Assembly: GCA_017538105.1 (NCBI GenBank)
Contig: JAFYJN010000099.1
Location: 24,016-88,015, forward strand
DNA: 64,000 nucleotides
Direction of reading: 5' to 3'
From: Prevotella sp.
Lineage (GTDB): Bacteria > Bacteroidota > Bacteroidia > Bacteroidales > Bacteroidaceae
In this document: positions 10,258-53,641 of the stretch, in pieces
Position numbering within the stretch: position 1 is the stretch's first letter
Layout of the letters: each line of letters opens with the position of its first letter
Translations under genes and position numbers: made by a program
The notes under the pieces: generated by a model
Told to the model about the DNA's origin: nothing
What the model saw: the letters and a program-made list of their open reading frames with translations, nothing else
The model's database searches: none

Positions 10258-10289
10258 ATCTTGCCCCTTGTCCCCTGCTCCTTGTCCCC
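10258..10289. repeat. Family G simple repeat (CTTGCCCCTTGTCCCC)
   Basis: Repeats of CTTGCCCC/CTTGTCCCC fill the gap between fkp and the GSCFA gene. The same words encode part of the CarA-CarB linker at 42650-42712. Confidence 0.7.
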
Positions 10290-39197: not shown

Positions 39198-40901
39198 TCA
39201 ATACGCCTGCTCATGCACACCCTTGACAGCACGACCACTCGGGTCGTTCATATTCTTGAAGGCCTCATCCCATTCCAGGGCGATAGCGGTGGAACAAGCC
39301 ACGCTGGCCTCACTGGGCACGCTGCGTGCAGCGGAGTCTGAGGGGAAATGCTCAGCAAAGATGCTGCGGTAGTAATACTCTTCTTTGTTCTTCGGCGGGT
39401 TGATGGGGAAACGCTCGGCAGCATGCTCCATCTGCTCGTCGCTGACGGCCTCGGCAGTAATGCGTTTTAGCGTGTCTATCCATGAGTAACCGACACCGTC
39501 GCTGAACTGTTCTTTCTGGCGCCAAGCCACCTCGGATGGTAACATGTCGGCGAAAGCTTCGCGAACGATACGCTTCTCCATCGTGGTGCCAGGACACATC
39601 TTCGCCTCAGGGTTCGTGCGCATGGCGACATCTAAAAACTCCTTATCGAGGAAGGGCACACGACCTTCGACACCCCAGGCCGACAGACTCTTGTTGGCAC
39701 GCAGACAGTCGTAGAGATAAAGCTTGCTGAGTTTGCGTACGGTCTCTTCGTGAAATGCCTTGGCATCGGGAGCCTTGTGGAAATAGAGATAACCGCCGAA
39801 AATCTCATCGGCACCCTCGCCGGAGAGTACCATCTTGATGCCCATCGATTTGATAACGCGAGCCAACAGGTACATCGGAGTGGAGGCACGGACAGTGGTG
39901 ACATCGTAGGTCTCTATGAAATAGATGACATCGCGCAAGGCATCAAGACCTTCCTGGATGGTGTAGTTAATCTCATGATGTACGGTGCCGATATGGTCGG
40001 CCACCAAACGGGCTTTGGCCAAGTCTGGTGCACCCTTCAGACCAACGGCAAATGAGTGCAGGCGGGGCCAGTAAGCCTTCGTCTTCGAATCATCCTCAAT
40101 GCGCATCTCACTGTATTTCTCGGCTATGGCGGAGATAACCGACGAGTCCAGACCGCCGGAGAGTAATACGCCGTAGGGCACATCACTCATCAACTGTCTT
40201 TTAACGGCATCTTCGAGACCATCACGAATGGCATCGACGTTGGCATTGTTATCCTTCACAGCGGCATAGTCGAACCAGTCTCTATGGTAATAACGTCGCA
40301 TGCCTGGCTCACGGTTCCAATAATAATGACCGGGTAGGAAAGGCTCGTAGCGCTCGCACTGCCCTTCGAGGGCTTTCAACTCCGAGGCGACATACACCGT
40401 GCCATCGTTGTCGTAGCCGATGTAAAGGGGTATTACGCCGATAGGGTCGCGGGCTATCAGGAAATCATCACGTTCTTCGTCATAAAGCACAAAAGCAAAA
40501 ATGCCGCTGAGCCGTTCCAACATTTTACAAATCTGCTCATGGGCGTAAAGGCTCCCATCGCCATCCGGAGAGAGGCTCCTGTAGAGGGCAAGGATGACCT
40601 CGCAGTCGCTGCCAGTCTGGAATTCATACTGCCCGGCAAAGCGGCGACGTGTTTCTTGATGGTTATAAATCTCACCGTTCACCGCAAGTACTTGCTTCCT
40701 GTCGGGTGTAAACAAAGGCTGACCACCAGATTCCGGGTCAACGATGCTCAGACGCTCATGGGCGAGGATGGCCGAACCGCCACAATAGATACCACTCCAG
40801 TCTGGACCGCGATGACGAATCTTCTGACTCATCTTCAACGCCTTCTCACGCAACTCATGCGTCTGCTCCTTTACATTCAATATAGCTACTATTCCACACA
40901 T
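39198..40901 (-). CDS. asnB: Asparagine synthase, glutamine-hydrolysing
   Basis: 567 residues. The N-terminal class II glutaminase domain begins MCGIVAIL, with Cys2 as nucleophile after Met removal. The C-terminal synthetase has the ATP PP-loop SGGLDSS (LLSGGLDSSVISA, about residue 240) and the GEGADEIFGGYLYFHKAP block. It makes asparagine from aspartate, glutamine and ATP. Last gene of the amtB-pyrG-purF-carAB-asnB unit, 18 bases from carAB, and followed by a strong terminator (39073-39110). Regulated presumably with the rest of the glutamine cluster. Confidence 0.95.
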   Translation of the reverse strand: MCGIVAILNVKEQTHELREKALKMSQKIRHRGPDWSGIYCGGSAILAHERLSIVDPESGGQPLFTPDRKQVLAVNGEIYNHQETRRRFAGQYEFQTGSDCEVILALYRSLSPDGDGSLYAHEQICKMLERLSGIFAFVLYDEERDDFLIARDPIGVIPLYIGYDNDGTVYVASELKALEGQCERYEPFLPGHYYWNREPGMRRYYHRDWFDYAAVKDNNANVDAIRDGLEDAVKRQLMSDVPYGVLLSGGLDSSVISAIAEKYSEMRIEDDSKTKAYWPRLHSFAVGLKGAPDLAKARLVADHIGTVHHEINYTIQEGLDALRDVIYFIETYDVTTVRASTPMYLLARVIKSMGIKMVLSGEGADEIFGGYLYFHKAPDAKAFHEETVRKLSKLYLYDCLRANKSLSAWGVEGRVPFLDKEFLDVAMRTNPEAKMCPGTTMEKRIVREAFADMLPSEVAWRQKEQFSDGVGYSWIDTLKRITAEAVSDEQMEHAAERFPINPPKNKEEYYYRSIFAEHFPSDSAARSVPSEASVACSTAIALEWDEAFKNMNDPSGRAVKGVHEQAY

Positions 40902-40919: not shown

Positions 40920-43811
40920 TTACAAATACGACAAATACAGATAATTGGTCTGCGCGGGATATTCCGCTGCCAACGTATCTATCTGGTTAACGGTGGGCAC
41001 GATGCCGAACTCCTTGCGCCATCCGCGGACCACAAGTCCGGCCTGTTCCATGTTCATGTTTGCCTCCAATCCCAAGGCCCTGCCTATCTGGAAATCGGAG
41101 AAACCATAGACCTTGGCCTCATAGAGTAAGTGCATGAACGCTGGTGTCTCAAGGTACTCCAATAACTCCGTATTGTCCATAAACTCAATGAACTCCGACA
41201 CTTGAACAAACTCTTTCAAGCGAAGGTCGATATTGACGATATGCTTGAGCTTCTGTAGGAACCAGCGGTCAATCTTCGTCAACTGGTGTATCTGCTCCAC
41301 GCTGTAACCAATCTTCAGCGCTTTCGACACCACGAAGATACGCATATCCGTTGGCTCGTGGAGGGCATTGGCGATGTCAGCAATCTTTATCTCGTGGTTC
41401 TCTACGAATCCGTGCATGCCCTGGCCAATCATGCGCAAACCCTTTTGCAGTGCTTCTTCGAAGGTGCGCCCGATGGCCATCACTTCGCCCACACTCTTCA
41501 TCGACGAGCCTAACTGTCGTTTCACACCGTGGAACTTCGTCAGGTCCCAACGAGGAATCTTGCACACCACATAGTCGAGGGCGGGCTCGAAGAAAGCACT
41601 CGTAGTCTTCGTCACCGAGTTCTTCAAGTCAAAGAGTCCGTAACCCAGTCCGAGTTTGGCAGCTACGAAAGCAAGAGGATAGCCCGTAGCCTTGGAGGCC
41701 AAAGCCGAAGAACGTGACAGACGAGCGTTGACCTCGATGACACGGTAATCTTCCGACTGCGGGTCGAGGGCGTACTGCACATTACACTCGCCCACGATGC
41801 CGATATGACGGATAATCTTGATGGCCAGCGCACGCAACTTGTGGTATTCGCTGTTGGTGAGTGTCTGGCTCGGTGCTACCACAATCGACTCGCCTGTATG
41901 GATACCTAACGGGTCGAAGTTCTCCATGTTACAGACGGTGATACAGTTGTCATAACGGTCGCGTACCACCTCATACTCAATCTCTTTCCAACCCTTCAGC
42001 GATTTCTCGACAAGAACCTGAGGCGAGAAAGAGAAGGCTTCCTCTGCCTGTACCAACAACTCTTCCTCGTTGTCGCAGAAACCGGAGCCGAGACCGCCGA
42101 GAGCGTAGGCGGCTCTCAATATCACGGGGAAACCCAGTTCACGGGCTGCGCGTTGCACTTCTTCGACGGTACCACATGCTTCGCTCTTGATGGTCTTCAC
42201 GCCAATCTCATCGAGCCGCTTGACGAACAGGTCGCGGTCTTCCGTGTCAATGATGGCTTGAATAGGGGTACCCAACACCTGCACACCATATTTCTCCAAT
42301 ACACCTTTCTTGAACAGTTCCACGCCGCAGTTCAGTGCCGTTTGACCGCCAAACGACAGTAGAATACCGTCGGGACGTTCCTTGGCGATGACTCGTTCTA
42401 CGAAGTCGGCCTTCACGGGTTGGAAATATACCTTGTCGGCCACGCCCTTCGAGGTCTGCACCGTGGCGATGTTCGGATTGATGAGCACTGTCTCGATACC
42501 TTCCTCCTTCAGTGCTTTCAGCGCCTGCGAACCGCTGTAGTCAAACTCACCCGCCTGACCAATCTTTAAGGCTCCGGAACCAAGCAACAACACTTTTTTC
42601 ACAGGAACATTCTTGCCTAACGAATCTTCAAGGTATTCTCTTACCTCTTGCTCCTTGCCCCTTGCCCCTTGGCCGCTGCCTCCTGCTCCTTGCTCGTTGC
42701 CCCTTGCCCCTAACATCCAGACAAACTCATCAAATAAGAAATCAGTGTCCACGGGACCGCTGCAAGCTTCGGGGTGGAACTGTGCCGACATCCACGGCAT
42801 CGTCTTATGGCGGATACCTTCATTGGAACCATCGTTCATATTCACGAACAACGGTTCCCAATCCTCGGGGAGCGTCGAATCGTCCACAGCATAACCGTGG
42901 TTCTGCGAGGTGATGAAGCATTGCGTAGTGCCAACTTTCCGGACGGGTTGGTTATGGCTACGATGACCATATTTCAATTTGTAGGTCTTGGCACCTGCCG
43001 CCTTGGCCAACAACTGGTTGCCGAGACAGATGCCCATGCAGGGCCTCACCTTGTCCGTCGGTTTTTTCATCTCCGTATTTAAGAACGCCCTGATATGCTC
43101 CACGGCTACCTCGCATCGGTCGGGGTCGCCCGGCCCATTTGCCAAAAACAGTCCGTCGAAGTCGAGTGTGTTGAAGTCATAGTCCCACGGAACACGAACT
43201 ACCTCGATGCCACGATTTATCAGACAACGGATGATATTTGCCTTTACGCCGCAGTCCACAAGCACGACACGTTTTTCTGCTCCTTCGTTGTAGGTAATCA
43301 CTTTCTGGCAACTCACCTTCTCTACCCAGTTCACACTGCCGTAATCCTCGTATTCCCTGTGCTGTGAAACTGTCGCAGACCCTTCAATGATGATGCGCCC
43401 CATCATCACTCCGTGCTCTCTCAGCAACTTCGTCAGTCTTCTGGTGTCTATACCGGTGATGCCCGGCACTTTCTCCCGCTTCAACCACGACGCCAGCGAT
43501 TCCTTTGCGTTCCAGTGAGAGAAAGTTTCGCTATAATCAGCAACAATCAGTGCCTTGGCATGAATGCGGCCACTCTCCATGAACAGGGGTAGGCCATTTG
43601 CCGACGGTTCTGATGATGGCACACCGTAGTTGCCCGCCAACGGAAAAGTCATGACCAGCATCTGACCGGCATAGCTGGGGTCTGTCAGACTTTCTGGATA
43701 GCCCGTCATGGCAGTGTTGAACACTACTTCACCATCTGTGTCTGCTTCATAACCAAATGAACGGCCAAAGAACTGGCTGCCGTCATCGAGTATCAGTCTT
43801 GCTTCTCTCAT
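40920..43811 (-). CDS. carAB: Fused carbamoyl-phosphate synthase: CarA plus first half of CarB only
   Basis: 963 residues. Residues 1 to about 372 are the small (glutaminase) subunit: nucleophile C262 in MGICLGNQ, and the His of SAQFHPE. Residues about 374-403 are a linker made of repeat DNA (GNEQGAGGSGQGARGKEQ). From about 405 the chain is the first CarB ATP-grasp half (KVLLLGSGALKIGQAGEFDY, SFGGQTALNCGVELF, NVQYALDP) and the oligomerisation domain, ending AAEYPAQTNYLYLSYL. Normal CarB (about 1070 residues) continues with a second ATP-grasp and an allosteric domain; here a stop codon follows and asnB starts 18 bases later. The synthetase half resembles the eukaryotic CAD type more than E. 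coli CarB. Confidence 0.9.
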   Translation of the reverse strand: MREARLILDDGSQFFGRSFGYEADTDGEVVFNTAMTGYPESLTDPSYAGQMLVMTFPLAGNYGVPSSEPSANGLPLFMESGRIHAKALIVADYSETFSHWNAKESLASWLKREKVPGITGIDTRRLTKLLREHGVMMGRIIIEGSATVSQHREYEDYGSVNWVEKVSCQKVITYNEGAEKRVVLVDCGVKANIIRCLINRGIEVVRVPWDYDFNTLDFDGLFLANGPGDPDRCEVAVEHIRAFLNTEMKKPTDKVRPCMGICLGNQLLAKAAGAKTYKLKYGHRSHNQPVRKVGTTQCFITSQNHGYAVDDSTLPEDWEPLFVNMNDGSNEGIRHKTMPWMSAQFHPEACSGPVDTDFLFDEFVWMLGARGNEQGAGGSGQGARGKEQEVREYLEDSLGKNVPVKKVLLLGSGALKIGQAGEFDYSGSQALKALKEEGIETVLINPNIATVQTSKGVADKVYFQPVKADFVERVIAKERPDGILLSFGGQTALNCGVELFKKGVLEKYGVQVLGTPIQAIIDTEDRDLFVKRLDEIGVKTIKSEACGTVEEVQRAARELGFPVILRAAYALGGLGSGFCDNEEELLVQAEEAFSFSPQVLVEKSLKGWKEIEYEVVRDRYDNCITVCNMENFDPLGIHTGESIVVAPSQTLTNSEYHKLRALAIKIIRHIGIVGECNVQYALDPQSEDYRVIEVNARLSRSSALASKATGYPLAFVAAKLGLGYGLFDLKNSVTKTTSAFFEPALDYVVCKIPRWDLTKFHGVKRQLGSSMKSVGEVMAIGRTFEEALQKGLRMIGQGMHGFVENHEIKIADIANALHEPTDMRIFVVSKALKIGYSVEQIHQLTKIDRWFLQKLKHIVNIDLRLKEFVQVSEFIEFMDNTELLEYLETPAFMHLLYEAKVYGFSDFQIGRALGLEANMNMEQAGLVVRGWRKEFGIVPTVNQIDTLAAEYPAQTNYLYLSYL
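42650..42712. repeat. Family G simple repeat encoding the CarA-CarB linker
   Basis: CTTGCCCCTTGCCCCTTGG, CTCCTTGCTCGTTGCCCC and similar words, read on the minus strand as Gly/Gln/Glu-rich linker codons. The same words occur in non-coding DNA at 10258-10289. Confidence 0.8.
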
Positions 43812-43815
43812 TTTT

Positions 43816-45669
43816 CTATAATTGCATCTTTAATGTTTGCTCTACATAGTTAACGAAGGCCTGGTTCACCATGCGGATGCCTCCGGGGGTGGGGTAGTGA
43901 CCGGTGAAATACCAGTCGCCGGGATGATGGGGACAGGCATGGTGAAGACCCTCAATGCTCTGGTAAACCAGCTCCACGGGCGACTGCATGCCCTCGGGAC
44001 GGAGCATCTCCACAATCTTGCGGTTGATCTCATCCACGGTAAAGGGGGCGTAAATGTTGCGGACATGATTGAATGCAAAGCCTATGTCTTCACTATTCCT
44101 TCTTCCTTCCTCCCTCTTACAAGCTTGGTATGTCTCTGCTATCAGATGTTGCATGCCGCGCTCCTTGATGAGGGCGATGGCGGCACGGAAGGCACACAGC
44201 TCTTCGAGACGTGACATATCGATGCCGTAGTAGTCAGGATAGCGTATCTGTGGAGAACTCGATACCATGACTATCTTCTTGGGGTGCAGACGGTCGAGAA
44301 TCTTGAAGATGCTCTCCTTCAGGGTGGTGCCTCGGACGATGCTGTCGTCGATAATGACAAGGTTGTCCTCGAAAGGTTGTAACGAGCCGTAGGTGATGTC
44401 ATAGACATGGGCGGCCAGGTCGTTGCGCTCCGCTCCTTCGGTGATGAAGGTGCGCAGCTTGATGTCTTTCCATACTACTTTTTCTATACGCACGTCATGG
44501 TTGAGGCGTCGTATTCCGTCGGTCATGCCGTAGAAGGCTACCTCGGCTGTGTTGGGGATATACGAAAAGATGGTATGTGTCACATCGTTGTTGATGGCTC
44601 GCATGATGGCAGGGGTGAGTTGTTCGCCTAACTGCTTGCGCTCCATGTAGATGTCACGGTCGGAACCACGACTGAAATATATTCGTTCAAAACTGCACGC
44701 TGACAATTCTTGCGCTGGCAGTATCTGTTCCAATACACGCTCTCCGCTCTTACGGACGATGAGCGACTGACCGGGCAGCAACTCATGTATGTCATCTGCA
44801 GTAAGGTCAAAGGTGGTCTGGATGACGGGACGCTCACTGGCCAGTACCATCACCTCTTCGTCCTGATACCAAAACGCGGGACGGATACCCCATGGGTCAC
44901 GAACGGCAAACATCTCACCCGAACCTGTCAGGCCGCACATCACATAGCCGCCATCGAAGTGGGGCATCGTCGTTCGGAGTACATTGGCCATGTCTACATG
45001 GTTATCTATATACTGAGTGATTTCTTGACCCTGCAACCCCTTTTCCTCCTTAGCTTCAATGAACAGCCTTTCCACCTCGCGGTCCAGACGGTGACCCATC
45101 AGCTCCAACGTGATGTACGAGTCTCCATAGATACGTGGCGACTGCCCCTGCTCTGTCAGGAAAGCGAAGACCTCATCGATGTTCGTCATGTTGAAGTTGC
45201 CACAGAGGCAGAGGTTCTTGGCACGCCAGTTGTTGCGGCGCAGAAACGGGTGGACATACGTTAGTCCGCTCTTGCCCGTGGTGGAATAGCGCAGATGACC
45301 CATAAATAGCTGTGCTCCTTCCCATCCTCTTACCGTAGAAGAGACTTCATGTGTTACCATAGGAGTTGCTTCACGTGCACCAGCTCCCCTCCCTTCTGGG
45401 GAGGGGTTGGGGGTGAGGTTCTTAAACACCTCGGTAATGGCATCTTTGCCCTCCGCCCGTTCACGGAACATATATTCCTCACCCACGGGAGCAAAAAGGT
45501 TGACACAGGCAATACCGGCACCCTCTTGACCACGGTTGTGTTGCTTCTCCATCATCAGATAGAGCTTGTTCAAACCATAACGACAAGTACCGTATTTCTG
45601 TTCGTAATATGTCAGTGGCTTCAACAAGCGAATCATCGCTACGCCACATTCATGCTTCAACTGTTCCAC
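43816..45669 (-). CDS. purF: Amidophosphoribosyltransferase (PurF family)
   Basis: 617 residues. MEQLKHECGVAMI gives a short propeptide and Cys8 as the class II glutaminase nucleophile. The C-terminal PRTase domain has the PRPP-binding loop LVIIDDSIVRGTTLKES. It transfers glutamine nitrogen to PRPP, the first committed step of purine synthesis. Residues about 82-102 (NLTPNPSPEGRGAGAREATP) are a translated REP palindrome, sitting inside the glutaminase domain between KDAITEVFK and MVTHEVSS. Four bases separate it from carAB. Long for PurF, as in Bacteroidota homologues. Confidence 0.92.
   Translation of the reverse strand: MEQLKHECGVAMIRLLKPLTYYEQKYGTCRYGLNKLYLMMEKQHNRGQEGAGIACVNLFAPVGEEYMFRERAEGKDAITEVFKNLTPNPSPEGRGAGAREATPMVTHEVSSTVRGWEGAQLFMGHLRYSTTGKSGLTYVHPFLRRNNWRAKNLCLCGNFNMTNIDEVFAFLTEQGQSPRIYGDSYITLELMGHRLDREVERLFIEAKEEKGLQGQEITQYIDNHVDMANVLRTTMPHFDGGYVMCGLTGSGEMFAVRDPWGIRPAFWYQDEEVMVLASERPVIQTTFDLTADDIHELLPGQSLIVRKSGERVLEQILPAQELSACSFERIYFSRGSDRDIYMERKQLGEQLTPAIMRAINNDVTHTIFSYIPNTAEVAFYGMTDGIRRLNHDVRIEKVVWKDIKLRTFITEGAERNDLAAHVYDITYGSLQPFEDNLVIIDDSIVRGTTLKESIFKILDRLHPKKIVMVSSSPQIRYPDYYGIDMSRLEELCAFRAAIALIKERGMQHLIAETYQACKREEGRRNSEDIGFAFNHVRNIYAPFTVDEINRKIVEMLRPEGMQSPVELVYQSIEGLHHACPHHPGDWYFTGHYPTPGGIRMVNQAFVNYVEQTLKMQL
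45384..45419. repeat. REP-like palindrome, family E (copy 6), inside purF
   Basis: CTCCCCTCCCTTCTGGGGAG and a GGGTTGGGGGTGAGG tail, in frame in purF (minus strand). Confidence 0.88.
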
Positions 45670-45671
45670 GT

Positions 45672-45718
45672 ATATTCAATTACCAATGTTCAATGATCAA
45701 CGTTCAATGTTCAACGTT
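45672..45718. repeat. Family F simple repeat (GTTCAATGTTCAACG)
   Basis: TTCAATTACCAATG, TTCAATGATCAACG, TTCAATGTTCAACG units in the purF-pyrG junction. They reach into pyrG and encode its end (GTLNIER, stop). A second copy set is at 53641-53668. Confidence 0.75.
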
Positions 45719-47352
45719 CCCCGTTCCACGCAAGCCTTGATAAACGACATAAACAACGGATGCGGATGCAGCACTGTCGAGGAGTATTCGGGATGGAATT
45801 GTGTGCCGATGTACCATCGCTTGTCGGGAATCTCCACAATTTCAACAAGGTTGGTGGTGGGGTTGATTCCGACACATTTCATGCCTGCCTGTTCATATTC
45901 CTCCTGATAGGCATTGTTGAACTCATATCTGTGCCTGTGCCGTTCACTGATGGTCACGGTGGCAGAGGATTGCTTAGTCTTCTCTCTTGACTTCTCATTT
46001 TCGTACGCTTGCCATGCGTGGCTACCCTTCACCAACTCACACTCGTAGGCTCCCAGACGCATCGTGCCGCCCATCTGCGTGATGTTCTTCTGCTCCTCCA
46101 TCATGTCGATGACATTATGCGAAGTGGAAGAATCCATCTCGGCACTGTGGGCATCTTTGTACCCTAATACGTTACGCGCAAACTCAATGACCATCATCTG
46201 CATACCCAGACAGATGCCGAAGGTGGGCACATCATGGGTACGGCCATATTCGGCGGCGATAATCTTACCCTCAATACCACGGCTGCCAAAACCGGGACAG
46301 ATAACGAGTCCCGTCATGTTGCCAAGCTTCGATGCGACATCTTCCTCGGTCATCTCTTCGCTGTTGACAAAATGCAACTTCACCTTTACGTCGTTATAAA
46401 CCCCGGCGAGATTGAGACTCTCGCGGATGCTCTTGTAGGCATCCTGAAGGTCGTACTTACCTACCAATGCAATATGTATTTCACGGGTGGCACGACGTTG
46501 CTTGTCCAAAAAAGCGTGCCAGGCCTGCATGACGGGTGTCTCACCTACGGGAATACCTATCTTACGGAGGATGGCAGCATCAAGCCCCTGACGTTGCATG
46601 TTCACGGGAACCTCGTAGATAGAGGGCATGTCCTCGCTCTGAACCACACACTCTAAATCGACGTTACAAAACGACGCCACCTTCATGCGTAGGGCATTGT
46701 CGAGGTGGCGTTCTGTTCTTAAGACAAGGATGTCGGGCTGTATACCCATACTCTGAAGTTCCTTCACTGAGTGTTGCGTGGGTTTGGTCTTCAACTCGTC
46801 GGCGGCCTTCAGGTAGGGCACATAGGTCAGGTGTACACAAACCGCTGCGCGACCCAGTTGCCAGCGCAACTGACGTATGGCCTCCATGAAAGGGGCACTC
46901 TCAATGTCGCCGATGGTGCCGCCTACCTCGGTGATGACGAAATCAAGTTCCTCATCACTTTCCATCCTCAACATCCTACGCTTGATCTCGTCGGTGATGT
47001 GAGGTACCACCTGGATGGTCTTTCCCAGATAATCGCCGCGACGCTCACGGTCGATGACGGTCTTGTAGATACGCCCGGTTGTAATAGAATTGTTGCACGT
47101 TGTATGTATGCCTGTAAACCGTTCGTAGTGACCCAGGTCGAGGTCTGTCTCCATACCGTCAACAGTGACGTAACATTCGCCGTGCTCATACGGATTCAGT
47201 GTCCCAGGGTCGATGTTAATGTAGGGGTCGAACTTCTGGATGGTGACTTTGTAACCACGCGCCTGAAGTAATTTGCCGATACTGGCGGAGATAATTCCCT
47301 TGCCTAACGAGGAAACAACACCGCCCGTGACAAAAATGTATTTTGTATCCAT
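45697..47352 (-). CDS. pyrG: CTP synthase
   Basis: 551 residues from the ATG at 47352 (MDTKYIFVTGGVVSSLGKG); an ATG one codon earlier (MMDTK) and a further one upstream are weaker. The N-terminal synthetase contains the P-loop-like GGVVSSLGKGI and the glutaminase domain has GICLGMQ (nucleophile Cys) and the FHPEYSS triad part. It makes CTP from UTP using glutamine nitrogen. The last residues (CVERGTLNIER) come from family F repeat DNA. Second gene of the amtB operon; 67 bases after the amtB stop. Confidence 0.96.
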   Translation of the reverse strand: MDTKYIFVTGGVVSSLGKGIISASIGKLLQARGYKVTIQKFDPYINIDPGTLNPYEHGECYVTVDGMETDLDLGHYERFTGIHTTCNNSITTGRIYKTVIDRERRGDYLGKTIQVVPHITDEIKRRMLRMESDEELDFVITEVGGTIGDIESAPFMEAIRQLRWQLGRAAVCVHLTYVPYLKAADELKTKPTQHSVKELQSMGIQPDILVLRTERHLDNALRMKVASFCNVDLECVVQSEDMPSIYEVPVNMQRQGLDAAILRKIGIPVGETPVMQAWHAFLDKQRRATREIHIALVGKYDLQDAYKSIRESLNLAGVYNDVKVKLHFVNSEEMTEEDVASKLGNMTGLVICPGFGSRGIEGKIIAAEYGRTHDVPTFGICLGMQMMVIEFARNVLGYKDAHSAEMDSSTSHNVIDMMEEQKNITQMGGTMRLGAYECELVKGSHAWQAYENEKSREKTKQSSATVTISERHRHRYEFNNAYQEEYEQAGMKCVGINPTTNLVEIVEIPDKRWYIGTQFHPEYSSTVLHPHPLFMSFIKACVERGTLNIER

Positions 47353-47387
47353 CATATAATGTTTGATAGTTTGCATCGATTAGGATT

Positions 47388-47440
47388 TCCCTTCCTTATG
47401 AGGGGGACAGGGGGAGGGCTTACCCTTTTACCATTTTATT
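47388..47440. repeat. REP-like palindrome (family E, copy 7) plus family D unit at the amtB end
   Basis: TTCCCTTCCTTATGAGGGGGACAGGGGGAGGG-type element (imperfect palindrome), then TACCCTTTTACCATTTTATT. The latter codes the amtB end (KNKMVKG, stop). Confidence 0.65.
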
Positions 47441-48811
47441 TTTTATATGCTCCTCATACTCTGCCAACTCCCTTTCACCGATATGTGCTAAACCGTAGTG
47501 CTCGTCATGCTGTGAGAAGTCGAGACCCACCTTCTCACTGTAGGCCGAGACACGCATGGGAATGAGACGGTCAATGAGCTTATAGCCCAACCAACTCATG
47601 GCGAAGGTATAAACGAACACGATGACGATGGCCAACAAGTGATAGAGGAAAATGACGAATCCATCCCATGTGCCTGCGATGAGTCCTTCCTGAATGAAGA
47701 TACCTGTCAACACCGTGCCGAATATGCCACCCGTGCCATGGGTGGGGAAAACATCAAGGGCATCATCGATACTGCTGCGCGAACGCCAATAGACAGCGAT
47801 GTTGCAGATAAGTGTGATGACAAAGGCAATGAAAATACTCTGACCCACCGTGACGTAACCTGCTGATGGGGTGATGGCAACCAAACCTACCACACAACCC
47901 ACAGCGGCACCCATGGCCGACGGCTTGCGACCGCGCAGACAGTCGAAGAATATCCACGTCATCATGGCCGTCGCGGAAGCGGTGTTTGTGTTTAGGAAGG
48001 CCTTGATGGCCTGTCCGTCGGCATGGAGCGATGAGCCGGCGTTAAAGCCGAACCAACCCAGCCAGAGCATGGCAGCACCAAGTAATACAAAGGGGATGTT
48101 GGCGGGCTCGCTCTTGCGCGTATCTGCCTTTCGACGACCAAGGAAGATGGCACCTGACAGGGCAGCTACGCCCGATGAGGCATGTACCACGATGCCACCT
48201 GCAAAATCAATGACACCCCAACGACAGAACAAACCCTCGGGATGCCACGTCATGTGGGCCAGCGGACAATAGATGACAAAGAAAAAGAACATCATGAAGA
48301 ACATGTAGGCCGAGAACCTGACACGCTCGGCAAATGAACCCGTGATGAGCGACGGCGTGATGATGGCGAACTTCATCTGGAACAAGGCGAAGAGAGCTAA
48401 AGGAATAGTTGCGCCACCAAGGATATTGCCCGCTGGCGTGGTGTAAACCTCACCTCCCACACCGTGGAACATCAAAAAAGTAAGCGGGTTACCAATCACA
48501 CCGCCGATATCGTCACCGAAACAAAGCGAAAAACCGACAACCACCCAAAGAACTGATATCAATCCCATGGCAATAAACGACTGTAACATGGTGGAGATGA
48601 CGTTTTTGGCACCCACCATACCACCATAGAAGAAAGATAGTCCGGGTGTCATCATCAATACGAAAATGGTGGCTGTAATCAGCCATGCTACGTCGGCGGC
48701 AGATATGACCGACCAATCGCACTCAAAGGTAGGTTCTCCAACTGCTAAACCTGCAATGGCAATCAGCGTTATCGCTACCATCAGGATTTTCCAACGTCTC
48801 TTTACCTTCAT
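47420..48811 (-). CDS. amtB: Ammonium transporter
   Basis: 463 residues with an N-terminal hydrophobic stretch (MVAITLIAIAGLAVG) and eleven or so membrane segments, including SFFYGGMVGAKNVIS and the conserved RGRKPS-AMGAAVGCVVGLVAITPSAGYV. It moves ammonium into the cell for assimilation. A GlnK partner gene is not adjacent. First gene of the operon that continues with four glutamine-using enzymes; divergent from gltB. Promoter at 48845-48852. The C-terminal tail (EHIKNKMVKG) ends in repeat-derived residues. Confidence 0.95.
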   Translation of the reverse strand: MKVKRRWKILMVAITLIAIAGLAVGEPTFECDWSVISAADVAWLITATIFVLMMTPGLSFFYGGMVGAKNVISTMLQSFIAMGLISVLWVVVGFSLCFGDDIGGVIGNPLTFLMFHGVGGEVYTTPAGNILGGATIPLALFALFQMKFAIITPSLITGSFAERVRFSAYMFFMMFFFFVIYCPLAHMTWHPEGLFCRWGVIDFAGGIVVHASSGVAALSGAIFLGRRKADTRKSEPANIPFVLLGAAMLWLGWFGFNAGSSLHADGQAIKAFLNTNTASATAMMTWIFFDCLRGRKPSAMGAAVGCVVGLVAITPSAGYVTVGQSIFIAFVITLICNIAVYWRSRSSIDDALDVFPTHGTGGIFGTVLTGIFIQEGLIAGTWDGFVIFLYHLLAIVIVFVYTFAMSWLGYKLIDRLIPMRVSAYSEKVGLDFSQHDEHYGLAHIGERELAEYEEHIKNKMVKG

Positions 48812-49028: not shown

Positions 49029-49062
49029 TTTGTTGGTAATTCGACAAAATGTGTTACTTTTG
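49029..49062 (+). promoter_or_regulatory. Promoter of gltB
   Basis: TTTG (49029-49032) and TACTTTTG (49055-49062), 22 bases apart. Transcription would begin near 49069, so the gltB start is at 49103; the frame's first ATG (49049) overlaps the promoter and is not transcribed. Confidence 0.75.
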
Positions 49063-49102
49063 CAGCGAAAAATGTCAGAAAGAAAGAAAAAGTAAGGATA
49101 AT

Positions 49103-52100
49103 ATGACAAAATGTAAATGTCAAAACCAAGCAAAAGGACTCTATCAAAGTAGCTATGAACATGATGCCTGTGGGGTGGGCATGATTGTCAATATTCATGG
49201 CAATAAGAGTCACGAACTGGTGGATAACGCGCTGAAAGTATTGGAGAACATGCGACATCGTGGTGCCGAAGTGGGAAAGGACGGCGATGGCGCAGGTATT
49301 ATGATTCAGATACCGCATGAATTTATTCTGTTGCAGGGTATCCCTGTGCCGGAAAAGGGAAAGTATGGCACGGGACTGGTGTTCCTGCCGAAAGAAGAAA
49401 AGGAACAGCAGGTAATACTGAGCATCATGATTGAGGAGATCGAGCGGGAGGGACTGCAATTGATGCACTTGCGTACCGTACCGACGAACCCGGAATGTCT
49501 GGGAGAAGCAGCACTGGGTACAGAACCCGATATCAAACAGGTGTTTGTCACAGGGGTCTCAGACGAAAAGGTCGATACTTTTCCGCGCACATTATATCTA
49601 ATCAGGAAAAAGATTGAACGACGCATCACACACAAAGACTTTTACATCTGCTCGCTGAGCAATACAAACATCATCTATAAAGGAATGCTGTCGTCGATGC
49701 AGGTACGACAGTATTTCCCCGACTTGACGAATCCATACCTGACAAGTGGACTGGCTTTGGTACATTCTCGTTTCAGCACCAATACGTTCCCGACGTGGAG
49801 CCTGGCACAGCCGTTCCGCTTGCTTTGTCACAACGGTGAAATCAACACCATCCGTGGTAACCGTGGATGGATGAAAGCGAGAGAGGCTGTGCTGAGCAGC
49901 GATGCTTTGGGCGATGCGAAAGCCATATCTCCCATAGTGCAAGAGGGCATGTCTGACTCAGCATCACTCGACAACGTGTTGGAGTTTTTCGTGATGTCGG
50001 GATTATCTCTGCCCCATGCGATGGCGGTATTGGTTCCTGAGTCGTTTAACGACAAAAACCCCATAAGCGAAGATCTGAAAGCATTCTACGAATACCACTC
50101 TATATTGATGGAGCCATGGGATGGACCTGCCGCACTGCTGTTCTCTGACGGACGGTTTGCTGGTGGTATGCTTGACCGTAACGGATTGCGCCCGGCAAGA
50201 TATACCATCACGAAAAACGACACGATGATTGTGGCATCGGAGGTGGGCGTGATGGATTTCGACCCTACTGAGATAGCGGAAAAAGGACGCCTGCAGCCAG
50301 GAAAAATCCTGCTGGTTGACACCAAGGAAGGAAAGATATACTACGATGGGGAAATCAAACAGCAACTGGCTGACGAACATCCCTACCGACAGTGGCTGAG
50401 CACCAACCGAATACAGTTGGAGAAACTGAAGAGTGGGCGCCATGTGGAAAACGGTGTAAGCAACCTGCTACAGAAGGAAATCATGTTCGGCTATGGTGCT
50501 GAGGACATCGACGCGACGATTATACCGATGGCTGTGAATGGACAGGAACCGACGGCTTCGATGGGTAACGATACTCCTCTGGCTGTGCTCTCCGACAAAC
50601 CGCAGACATTCTTCAACTATTTCCGACAGCAATTCGCACAGGTGACAAATCCTGCCATTGACTCGATACGTGAGGAACTGGTGATGAGCCTGACGGAGTA
50701 TATCGGACGGGTGGGCACGGGTATCCTTAACCCCGACGAGACGAACTGTAAGATGGTGCGGTTGCCGCATCCCATTCTGAACAATACGCAGCTGGATATC
50801 CTTTGTAACATCCGGTATAAGGGCTTCAACACGATAAAACTGAATACCACATTCGAAGGTGGAGGCTGTATTTCACCGACACAAGCAGGGGAAAGGCTCC
50901 GCGATGCTATCGACAAACTGTGTAAAGATGCGGAGAAAAGCGTGGATGAGGGCTATAACTATATCATCCTCAGCGACCGGGAGGCTGATGCCACTCACGT
51001 AGCAATACCAAGTTTGTTGGCCGTGTCTGCCGTTCACCATTATCTCATTGGCGTGGGAAAAAGGGTGCAGACGGCTCTGATCGTGGAGAGCGGGGAAATA
51101 CGTGAGACAATGCATGCGGCATTGCTGTTAGGCTACGGCGCTTCGGCTCTCTGTCCCTATATGACGTTCGCCATACTGGATGATTTGGTGAAACGGCACA
51201 AGATCCAGGAAGACTACTCAACTGCTGAGAAGAACTATGTCAAGGCCGTGAAGAAGGGACTCTTCAAAATCATGGCGAAGATGGGCATTTCAACTATACG
51301 TTCCTATCGAGGGGCGAAAATCTTTGAAAGTATAGGACTGAGCGAGAGCCTGCTAAAGAGTTATTTTGGCACGGAGGTAAGCACCATCGGTGGTGTGGGA
51401 CTGGAGAAAATTGCCCAAGATGCCATAGCCATGCAACGCGCCTCCTTCTCCTCCGCCAATCCCTCCTTCTCCGCAGGCAGCGGCTCAGCCGCTGCTAATC
51501 CCTCTTTCCTTCCCAACCTCGGACAGTTCCATTGGCGTAAGGATGGTATCAAGCACGCTTGGAATCCAGAAACAATAGCCAAACTGCAGTTGGCTTGCCG
51601 CACGGGCAACTACAAACAATTCAAGGAGTGGGCTGCACTGGTCGATGAGAAGGAGTCACCTATCTTCATCCGCGATTTCCTTGGCTTTACAAAAAGAAAG
51701 GCTATCCCCATCGATGAGGTGGAGCCGGTGAGCGAGATAGTGAAACATTTCGTGGCGGGAGCCATGTCGTTCGGGGCATTGTCGAAGGAGGCTCACGAAG
51801 CCATCTGTCTGGCTATGAATAAACTCGGCGCGCGCTCGAACACGGGCGAAGGTGGAGAAGACTCTGAACGTTTCCACTCCTCATTTGATGGCATCAGCCT
51901 CTGTTCTAAGACGAAACAGGTGGCAAGTGGACGGTTTGGTGTGACAACGGAATATTTGGTGAACGCCGAGGAGATACAAATCAAGGTGGCTCAGGGTGCG
52001 AAACCGGGCGAAGGTGGACAGCTGCCCGGATTCAAGGTCAACGAGGTCATCGCCAAGACTCGACACTCTATTCCTGGCATCTCACTCATCTCGCCGCCGC

Positions 52101-53641
52101 CACATCATGACATCTATTCGATTGAAGACTTGGCGCAATTAATATTCGATCTGAAGAATGTAAATCCTAAGGCTGCCATCAGCGTGAAACTTGTAGCAGA
52201 GAGTGGCGTGGGAACGATTGCGGCAGGTGTGGCGAAAGCCAAGGCCGACCTCATCGTCATCAGTGGCGCTGAGGGTGGAACGGGAGCCAGTCCGGCATCA
52301 AGCATGCGCTTCGCAGGGATATCGCCTGAAATAGGACTGAGCGAGACGCAACAGACGCTGGTGCGCAACGGACTGAGAGGCGATGTGCGCCTGCAAGTGG
52401 ATGGACAGATAAAAACAGGACGCGACGTGGTGCTGATGGCAATGCTCGGTGCCGAGGAGTTTGGCTTCGGCACGGCGACGCTCATCGTGTTGGGATGCGT
52501 GATGATGCGCAAGTGCAACTTAAACACGTGTCCGATGGGTGTAGCTACGCAAAACGCTGAACTGAGAAAACATTTTGTGGGACGATACGAATATCTCGTC
52601 AATTACTTCACATTCCTTGCCGAGGAAGTGCGTGAGTATCTGGCTGAGATGGGATTCAAGAGCCTCAACGACATAGTGGGACGAACGGATCTCATAGAAA
52701 CAAAACCGACCATACTCGACTTCAACAGACTGCTGCACAAGGAAGAAGGAACGCTCCATTTCACGGGCGATGCCAAGAAACCTGCAGTGCCACTCGGTAT
52801 GCAGGGTACCATCCTCGACCAGCAGATGATGTCGGCGGCGGAAAAAGCCATCGAGCGGCAAGAAGAAGTGTCACTCGACTATGCTATCAAGAACACCGAC
52901 CGTGCCGTGGGAACGATGCTCTCCGGGGTGATTGCACAGAGATATGGTCTCGCCGGACTGCCCGACAACACCATCAACGTGAAATTCAAAGGCTCGGCAG
53001 GGCAGTCGTTTGGAGCATTCCTGGAACATGGTGTCAGCTTCAAACTCGAAGGTGAGACGAATGACTACTTCGCCAAGGGTCTGTCTGGTGGTCTCATCGC
53101 CATACTGCCACCTACACGCTCGAACTTCAAGGCTGAAGACAATGTCATCGCGGGAAATACAGGTCTCTATGGTGCCACCTCTGGCGAGCTATATATCAAT
53201 GGACGTGTCGGCGAACGCTTCGGCGTGCGCAACAGCGGTGCCATCGCAGTCATAGAGGGGGCTGGCGACCACTGCTGCGAGTACATGACGGGTGGCCGCG
53301 TGGTGGTGCTTGGACAGACGGGACGCAACTTCGCGGCGGGTATGTCGGGAGGCGTGGCGTATGTCTATGACCCAAATCATACTTTCGACTATTTCTGCAA
53401 CATGGACATGGTGGAAATCAATCTTGTCGAGGACAGCGTCAGCCGAAAAGAACTACTGGAACTGATTCGCCAACACTATCTGCATACAGGGTCGGCACTT
53501 GCTGGACGTATGCTCGACGACTGGCACCGTTACGTGGAGGACTTTATCCAAGTGGTGCCCATCGAGTATAAACGTGTGCTGCAGGAGGAACAGATGAGGA
53601 AACTGAGAGAGAAAATCGCTGATATGCAGCGTGAGTATTAA
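49103..53641 (+). CDS. gltB: Glutamate synthase (NADPH), large subunit
   Basis: 1512 residues from the ATG at 49103 (preceded by AAGGA). The glutaminase nucleophile is Cys23 (HDACGVG), exposed after propeptide removal. A central domain follows, then the FMN-binding synthase barrel with the iron-sulfur cysteines CVMMRKCNLNTCPMG and the C-terminal beta-helix (GLSGGLIAIL...). It makes two glutamates from glutamine and 2-oxoglutarate. Insertion: residues about 780-807 (SSANPSFSAG..ANPSFLPN) before QFHWRKDG are low-complexity and repeat-derived. gltD follows 29 bases later. Divergent from amtB. Confidence 0.96.
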   Translation: MTKCKCQNQAKGLYQSSYEHDACGVGMIVNIHGNKSHELVDNALKVLENMRHRGAEVGKDGDGAGIMIQIPHEFILLQGIPVPEKGKYGTGLVFLPKEEKEQQVILSIMIEEIEREGLQLMHLRTVPTNPECLGEAALGTEPDIKQVFVTGVSDEKVDTFPRTLYLIRKKIERRITHKDFYICSLSNTNIIYKGMLSSMQVRQYFPDLTNPYLTSGLALVHSRFSTNTFPTWSLAQPFRLLCHNGEINTIRGNRGWMKAREAVLSSDALGDAKAISPIVQEGMSDSASLDNVLEFFVMSGLSLPHAMAVLVPESFNDKNPISEDLKAFYEYHSILMEPWDGPAALLFSDGRFAGGMLDRNGLRPARYTITKNDTMIVASEVGVMDFDPTEIAEKGRLQPGKILLVDTKEGKIYYDGEIKQQLADEHPYRQWLSTNRIQLEKLKSGRHVENGVSNLLQKEIMFGYGAEDIDATIIPMAVNGQEPTASMGNDTPLAVLSDKPQTFFNYFRQQFAQVTNPAIDSIREELVMSLTEYIGRVGTGILNPDETNCKMVRLPHPILNNTQLDILCNIRYKGFNTIKLNTTFEGGGCISPTQAGERLRDAIDKLCKDAEKSVDEGYNYIILSDREADATHVAIPSLLAVSAVHHYLIGVGKRVQTALIVESGEIRETMHAALLLGYGASALCPYMTFAILDDLVKRHKIQEDYSTAEKNYVKAVKKGLFKIMAKMGISTIRSYRGAKIFESIGLSESLLKSYFGTEVSTIGGVGLEKIAQDAIAMQRASFSSANPSFSAGSGSAAANPSFLPNLGQFHWRKDGIKHAWNPETIAKLQLACRTGNYKQFKEWAALVDEKESPIFIRDFLGFTKRKAIPIDEVEPVSEIVKHFVAGAMSFGALSKEAHEAICLAMNKLGARSNTGEGGEDSERFHSSFDGISLCSKTKQVASGRFGVTTEYLVNAEEIQIKVAQGAKPGEGGQLPGFKVNEVIAKTRHSIPGISLISPPPHHDIYSIEDLAQLIFDLKNVNPKAAISVKLVAESGVGTIAAGVAKAKADLIVISGAEGGTGASPASSMRFAGISPEIGLSETQQTLVRNGLRGDVRLQVDGQIKTGRDVVLMAMLGAEEFGFGTATLIVLGCVMMRKCNLNTCPMGVATQNAELRKHFVGRYEYLVNYFTFLAEEVREYLAEMGFKSLNDIVGRTDLIETKPTILDFNRLLHKEEGTLHFTGDAKKPAVPLGMQGTILDQQMMSAAEKAIERQEEVSLDYAIKNTDRAVGTMLSGVIAQRYGLAGLPDNTINVKFKGSAGQSFGAFLEHGVSFKLEGETNDYFAKGLSGGLIAILPPTRSNFKAEDNVIAGNTGLYGATSGELYINGRVGERFGVRNSGAIAVIEGAGDHCCEYMTGGRVVVLGQTGRNFAAGMSGGVAYVYDPNHTFDYFCNMDMVEINLVEDSVSRKELLELIRQHYLHTGSALAGRMLDDWHRYVEDFIQVVPIEYKRVLQEEQMRKLREKIADMQREY
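51440..51523. repeat. Repeat insertion in gltB with a 19-bp palindrome
   Basis: GCAGCGGCTCAGCCGCTGC at 51477-51495 is a perfect palindrome around a central C. It is flanked by two copies of AATCCCTC-TTCT/TTCC words in direct orientation. The insertion keeps the gltB reading frame. Confidence 0.75.

Follow-up and report, generated by a model that had tools for sequence, protein, structure and literature searches.

A half-length carbamoyl phosphate synthetase large subunit conserved in Prevotella and its possible role beside a second CarB

Carbamoyl phosphate synthetase (CPS) occurs widely and supplies a precursor of arginine and of the bases of DNA and RNA. Its large subunit, CarB, is described as a classic outcome of internal duplication, an event so ancient that the protein has served to root the tree of life (PMC11915815). 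Can one half of this duplicated protein do the work of both? The question is raised by a 64,000-nucleotide stretch of a Prevotella sp. genome (the window; contig JAFYJN010000099.1, here C19, of assembly GCA_017538105.1), in which an open reading frame (ORF) joins CarA to a single half of CarB and then stops. Judged from the sequences of this locus and its relatives, a half enzyme that has persisted and looks functional is present in many rumen Prevotella, together with a complete copy of CarB that has no CarA partner.

The fusion and the rest of its genome

The ORF and its parts are as follows:

40920..43811, minus strand: ORF of the CarA-half-CarB fusion, 963 amino acids (Pfam, NCBIfam)
42702..43811, minus strand: CarA part, residues ~1-370, class-I glutaminase (Pfam, triad alignment)
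42647..42711, minus strand: degenerate 7-bp tandem array of ~9.3 copies at the carA/half-carB junction
42612..42701, minus strand: low-complexity linker, residues ~371-400, absent from the separate-gene locus L133
40923..42611, minus strand: half-CarB, residues 401-963, with the pre-ATP-grasp, bicarbonate ATP-grasp and D3 oligomerisation domains
41133..41183, minus strand: ~17 additional residues in D3 (~877-893 as judged by eye from the alignment), a feature characteristic of the half clade

Pfam places CPSase_sm_chain (6-140) and GATase (183-364) in the CarA part, and CPSase_L_D1 (405-520), CPSase_L_D2 (525-726) and CPSase_L_D3 (816-911) in the half-CarB part; it lists a single CPSase_L_D2 stretch, and neither a second ATP-grasp copy nor an MGS domain. 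The half terminates at about residue 548 of E. coli CarB, which is a domain boundary. With TIGR01369, the model of full-length CarB, the fusion falls short of the cut-off of 1027, reaching 853.9 bits over positions 4-542 of a profile of 1052, while with TIGR01368 it scores 438.9 bits (cut-off 307.35) and is thus a member of the CarA family. By these profiles the ORF is CarA plus an incomplete CarB, since the full-length model fails and the C-terminal half (C-half) and MGS domain are missing, an architecture that the original prediction had read correctly. The fusion passes the NCBI large-subunit model NF003671 (719.6 bits against 599); therefore, half-CarB is likely to be labelled automatically as 'large subunit', and annotation may hide it. 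The best PDB matches of the protein are to human CPS1 (5dot/6uel), with 1150 bits across both parts, compared with ~890 bits combined for the separate E. coli chains (CarB 642 and CarA 248).

The genome itself is an assembly of 3.61 Mb in 102 contigs, 99.73% complete and with an estimated contamination of 5.5%. A search with PF02786 gave five matches, corresponding to the fusion, the two halves of one full CarB, PurT and the D-Ala-D-Ala ligase (Ddl). The fusion is the sole match on C19, which bears out the earlier statement that the missing half is not in the window. CarA matches once in the genome, inside the fusion, and D3 matches twice, in the fusion and in a complete CarB of 1073 residues on contig C26 (CarB2), which matches TIGR01369 in full (1433.4 bits) and is an orphan, with no CarA beside it. 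It had been suggested that a second-half gene might lie elsewhere in the genome, as in the known split forms of CPS, in which a separate C-half gene complements the first; split carB genes do occur, for example in Aquifex (PMC6022934). In this nearly complete assembly, however, the PF02786 search found no lone second half of CarB, all matches besides the fusion being CarB2, PurT and Ddl, and we consider this explanation very improbable.

Distribution, conservation and fusion of the half

The D3 region was used to scan named genomes and the best 80 loci were used, 76 of which are titled Prevotella, Prevotellaceae, Bacteroidaceae or Bacteroidales. A complete N-terminal half (N-half) is present in 71 and not in 9, the former comprising 29 fused halves, 30 halves without a complete in-frame CarA and 12 full CarB proteins. 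The 59 complete half-CarB loci thus include 28 with separate carA and half-carB genes, 29 fusions and 2 (L147 and L169) cut by a contig start, of which L169 is visibly fused despite the cut. Among the separate-gene loci are those of Prevotella sp. khp7 (L133) and ne3005 (L188), on contigs of 853 kb and 704 kb, whose records are not labelled as metagenome-assembled genomes (MAGs). The half-CarB alignment holds 83 rows, 81 of them distinct (the pairs L127/L184 and L121/L171 are identical), and includes both L139 and L169, which by their contig names come from the same MAG. A separate observation concerns G552, the genome of L138, where two half-CarB frames of 953 and 959 residues lie on different contigs of one MAG, by duplication or in a mixed bin.

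Broader samples place the half in its taxonomic context. CarA matches were obtained in 132 of 247 Bacteroidales genomes and in none of the other 115; the CarA frames mostly measure ~355-470 residues, with a few shorter fragments and six of 1448-1536 residues, five of which were retrieved and proved to be full CarA-CarB fusions. Two frames have the size of a half-fusion, those of the window (969) and G211 (984). In a sample of 301 genomes of the family, at least 22 CarA frames measure 938-1056 residues, and the loci retrieved for them are half-fusions, from genera g182, g184, g186, g191 and g193. An order sample of 393 genomes, containing only six of the window's family, shows the D3 insert, among the matches listed, in the window and in G211 and G845 from one other family. 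The half ending and the D3 insert are also found in L209, titled Paludibacteraceae. No paper on half-CarB in Prevotella was found in the open-access literature by titles and abstract openings, most subscription papers lying outside this scope.

All 83 rows keep R129, R169, G175, G176, E215, H243, Q285, E299, N301 and R303 (E. coli numbering), as well as the tunnel or gate positions E25, R306, E383, C232, A251 and A314; which positions are catalytic or line the tunnel is our assumption, in part transferred from CPS1. The last three are equated here with the gate residues Cys648, Ala667 and Ala729 of CPS1 (PMC4655335). In the alignment with CarB halves that the original prediction had called for, the checked catalytic positions are identical among half rows, ordinary CarB (CarB1) and CarB2. 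In the CarA partners, the counterpart of E. coli Cys269 is kept in 81 of 81 rows and those of His353/Glu355 in 80, the remaining row having a gap. The phosphorylation domain, and with it the face on which the C-half sat, is hardly relaxed: of its 191 positions that are invariant in 26 CarB1 or full fusions and 27 CarB2, 7 show variation in five or more of the 83 halves.

Half-CarB is under strong purifying selection. Nonsynonymous divergence (dN) is 0.077-0.120 in 25 half-locus pairs, a comparison covering 25 of the 59 half loci, while synonymous divergence (dS) reaches at least 1.39 in 23 pairs and is saturated in the other 2. In 82 of 83 rows, the half ends at E. coli residue 547-549. The same architecture and the same end point in so many genomes exclude chance and assembly error, among them the loss of about 1.6 kb that had been named as a danger. 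A decaying remnant or an artefact might have been suspected from an assembly of 102 contigs with some contamination, but 83 rows including khp7 and ne3005, a dN far below dS and the common 3' boundary leave it barely credible, and pseudogene and assembly gap were rejected as candidates. It had also been reasoned that a complete carB elsewhere would make the fusion a paralogue or a remnant: the complete copy does exist, on C26, and the half is nevertheless no remnant.

What distinguishes the half is found away from the catalytic positions checked. Its D3 segment has 46 residues in 81 of 83 rows (47 in one of the remaining two, 59 in the second); the corresponding segment measures 28-37 residues in CarB1 and full fusions and 29 in CarB2. 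Eight near-fixed differences separate the half from CarB1. These clade-specific features, with the loss of the second half and the retention of a second CarB, would suit a protein with a new role, as a glutamine- and bicarbonate-dependent ATPase, a carbamate donor or a regulatory sensor, in cells where CarB2 makes all the carbamoyl phosphate. The checked catalytic positions are nonetheless the same as in CarB1 and CarB2 in all 83 rows, none of them being touched by the eight replacements, and such a role appears rather improbable. As a side observation, L198 encodes a full CarB1 of 1090 residues whose D3 segment is lengthened in part and may represent a stage on the way to the insert of the half clade.

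A tree of 137 N-halves (quick IQ-TREE search, supported only by the Shimodaira-Hasegawa-like approximate likelihood ratio test, SH-aLRT) unites the 83 half rows, from Prevotella-like Bacteroidales, in one clade (SH-aLRT 95), with the window copy nested among Prevotella halves, and CarB2 in a separate, paralogous one (SH-aLRT 100). The root and the joining of CarB2 with E. coli are unsure because E. coli is a very long branch. The full CarA-CarB fusions (L076-L080, 1443-1532 residues) fall outside the half clade.

The comparison with related Bacteroidales, proposed earlier for the fusion, shows that it is the half that recurs as one clade, and that the fusion itself is incidental. Of the rows in the tree, 53 are fused, the window included, and the fused state changes 20 times, at least 7 of them forced by well-supported branches, a count slightly inflated by L147 and L169, which were scored as unfused for their contig ends. 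These many gains or losses, the 28 separate-gene loci and linkers that differ in sequence indicate that the CarA fusion is secondary and recurrent and not the conserved trait; its candidacy as the key novelty was rejected on the same grounds. The two genes overlap by 4 bp in 18 of the 28 separate-gene loci, and the 7-bp array of the window occupies the position matching the stop/start overlap of L133. The array probably gave rise to the fusion here, and as the 7-bp length of its unit is not divisible by 3, gaining or losing copies could switch the fusion of carA and half-carB on or off. Some of the linkers in other fused loci are visibly repetitive as well. Elsewhere in the window, a stretch at ~10259-10279 (minus strand) resembles the array, with 3 mismatches to the pattern.

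What one half might do beside a second CarB

The reading that we favour, with a probability of roughly 0.45, is that CarA and half-CarB constitute a naturally occurring GLN-CPS.A: a homodimer that depends on glutamine, lacks the allosteric domain and works beside a CarA-independent CarB2. In this mechanism, CarA would hydrolyse glutamine and pass the ammonia to the N-half of CarB, which would phosphorylate bicarbonate and yield carbamate; two N-halves would pair over the pseudo-twofold face normally occupied by the C-half, and the site of the second N-half would phosphorylate the carbamate. The outcome would be a minimal glutamine-dependent synthetase with no C-terminal regulatory domain, encoded among nitrogen-assimilation genes, while CarB2 would be a separate and probably ammonia-dependent enzyme supplying the bulk of carbamoyl phosphate. 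It is the best single model because the glutaminase, the carboxyphosphate site and its half of the tunnel are retained, because CPS has pseudo-twofold symmetry (PMC4655335) and because isolated CPS.A and CPS.B of Aquifex are described as each catalysing both ATP partial reactions (PMC6022934). The sequences establish the architecture, its conservation, the clade, the selection and the co-occurrence with a second CarB; the homodimer, the two ATP steps in one half, the use of ammonia by CarB2 and the division of labour are what we infer.

A bolder version, which we hold slightly more tentatively, is that the half is self-sufficient: CarA and one CarB half would form a homodimer in which one ATP-grasp site serves both phosphorylations, free of control by uridine monophosphate (UMP) or ornithine, and rumen Prevotella would have re-created by deletion a living counterpart of the proposed pre-duplication ancestor of CarB. 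This is close to the interpretation first given to the ORF, which is partly supported: the half is real and no lone second-half gene was found in the genome, yet it stands almost always beside a second complete CarB.

That second CarB is found, among the matches listed, in 59 of 61 half genomes, the exceptions being G504 (63% complete) and G556; of the 18 genomes that have an ordinary CarB1 or a full fusion instead, 6 carry one. The two samples of half genomes contribute 23 of 24 (one frameshifted) and 36 of 37 (some cut by contig ends). It was typed as CarB2 by sequence in 22 genomes of the former and 20 of the latter, and judged by frame length in the latter's other 16 and in G588, while the CarB of G536, split into two frames, is untyped. 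The Fisher value for the co-occurrence is 2.8e-8, ignoring relatedness; by parsimony, the presence of the second CarB changes 2 times among the 61 half rows and 5 times among the 18 others. In a family sample of 76 genomes, sorted by eye among the matches listed, 7 have a half, 48 CarB1, 15 CarB2 only, 1 a divergent form and 5 weak matches or none, and CarB2 occurs in 6 of the 7 half genomes (not in G288, 87% complete) versus 16 of the 48; five of the 7 also belong to the 24-genome sample.

Ten ATP-site residues checked in the two halves of CarB2 are kept in 51 of 51 sequences, position 232 is Ala in 50 (Val in one), and R265, presumably linked to the tunnel entrance, is Gln in 49; half-CarB and CarB1 keep Cys232 and Arg265. 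Of the 15 genomes with CarB2 but neither CarB1 nor half-CarB, 14 are also without CarA among the matches listed, and since CarB2 occurs in genomes lacking CarA, it is probably ammonia-dependent. The exception, G257, carries on its contig C50 a CarA followed by a CarB1 fragment of ~104 residues, its only full CarB being CarB2, a possible stage of decay. A CarB match is present in each of six CarA-less genomes checked in the window's family (a full-length frame in five, one of 687 residues in G262), so that a CarA-free CPS may be widespread.

The main rival to a GLN-CPS.A homodimer is that CarA/half-CarB hands ammonia or carbamate to CarB2 in a hetero-oligomer, perhaps via D3, so that CarB2 gains the nitrogen of glutamine. 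The co-occurrence in both comparisons favours it, as does the location in the fusion of the only CarA found in the genome. CarB2 is also found, however, without half-CarB and without a CarA match; no family of neighbouring genes is common to more than 3 of 20 CarB2 loci; and only two weak positions distinguish the CarB2 proteins of half genomes (40 sequences) from those of other genomes (11 sequences; L215 left out), an absence of clear change that slightly favours separate enzymes. Moreover, the co-occurrence rests on one half clade, so that part of it may be owed to common descent; carbamate is a labile compound, and nothing points to a channel linking the two proteins. We regard this partnership as less likely than the homodimer.

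Several points weigh against the GLN-CPS.A reading itself. The chief one, against full self-sufficiency, is that the half almost never occurs without a second full CarB, which would be unexpected if it alone supplied the cell and which favours a division of labour or else cooperation in trans. Relaxation at the invariant positions is relatively higher in D3 (5 of 41 by the measure used above) than in the phosphorylation domain, so that a change in the oligomerisation surface may have taken place. The AlphaFold model, built with 28 close fusions, is too poor over most of the chain to give structural support (pLDDT 56.8, pTM 0.34). Finally, the natural candidate named beside the separated Aquifex halves, each of which is able to carry out the two ATP steps (PMC6022934), is the 41-kDa half-CPS of Methanobrevibacter smithii, and it is disputed: by the phylogeny in PMC11915815 it is not a CarB.

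With this conserved natural half, which keeps its glutaminase triad intact and is present in two Prevotella records that carry no MAG label, it becomes testable whether half of the enzyme suffices for the complete reaction. The finding further suggests that rumen Prevotella have two carbamoyl phosphate systems in parallel, one linked to glutamine and without an allosteric domain, the other apparently independent of CarA. Around the fusion, whose stop codon lies 18 bp ahead of the start of asnB, the window encodes:

39198..40901, minus strand: asnB, next downstream (NCBIfam)
43816..45669, minus strand: PurF-like amidotransferase, next upstream (132.8 bits against a purF cut-off of 350)
45697..47376, minus strand: CTP synthase
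47420..48811, minus strand: ammonium transporter
49049..53641, plus strand: glutamate synthase large subunit, divergent

The PurF-like gene adjoins carA in many of the loci examined. In the window, at ~45300-45420 (minus strand), it contains an in-frame low-complexity insert starting LTPNPSPEGRG, which resembles the linkers of the fused loci L139, L150, L151 and L163, as if repeat-like DNA were read through inside genes.

Comparison with known systems

With CarAB of E. coli (CPS II), the enzyme of the window shares the CarA glutaminase, the carboxyphosphate and oligomerisation domains and the active-site residues where checked; unlike it, it has neither the carbamate-phosphorylating half nor the allosteric domain, its D3 is longer, and it is fused in some species. 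The 41-kDa protein of M. smithii is not known to have a CarA or a D3 domain. This 'smallest CPS' was proposed to be a single-ATP-grasp dimer performing both steps (PMC6022934). The full fusions L076-L080 of other Bacteroidales have the same order in one chain, but keep the C-half; in architecture they resemble the eukaryotic single-chain enzymes. Among animals, CAD and CPS III are single-chain forms of CPS. Human CPS1 likewise has a GLN domain followed by CPS.A in one chain, at the end of which the window protein stops. At the position of the catalytic Cys, CPS1 has Ser (PMC4655335), while the half clade keeps Cys. The split CPS of Aquifex aeolicus is alike in having a separate or lone CPS.A, and differs in its gene for CPS.B, none being found in the genome of the window. 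A counterpart of human design also exists: in 1996, Guy and Evans reportedly described laboratory GLN-CPS.A constructs of CAD and E. coli with the same domains.

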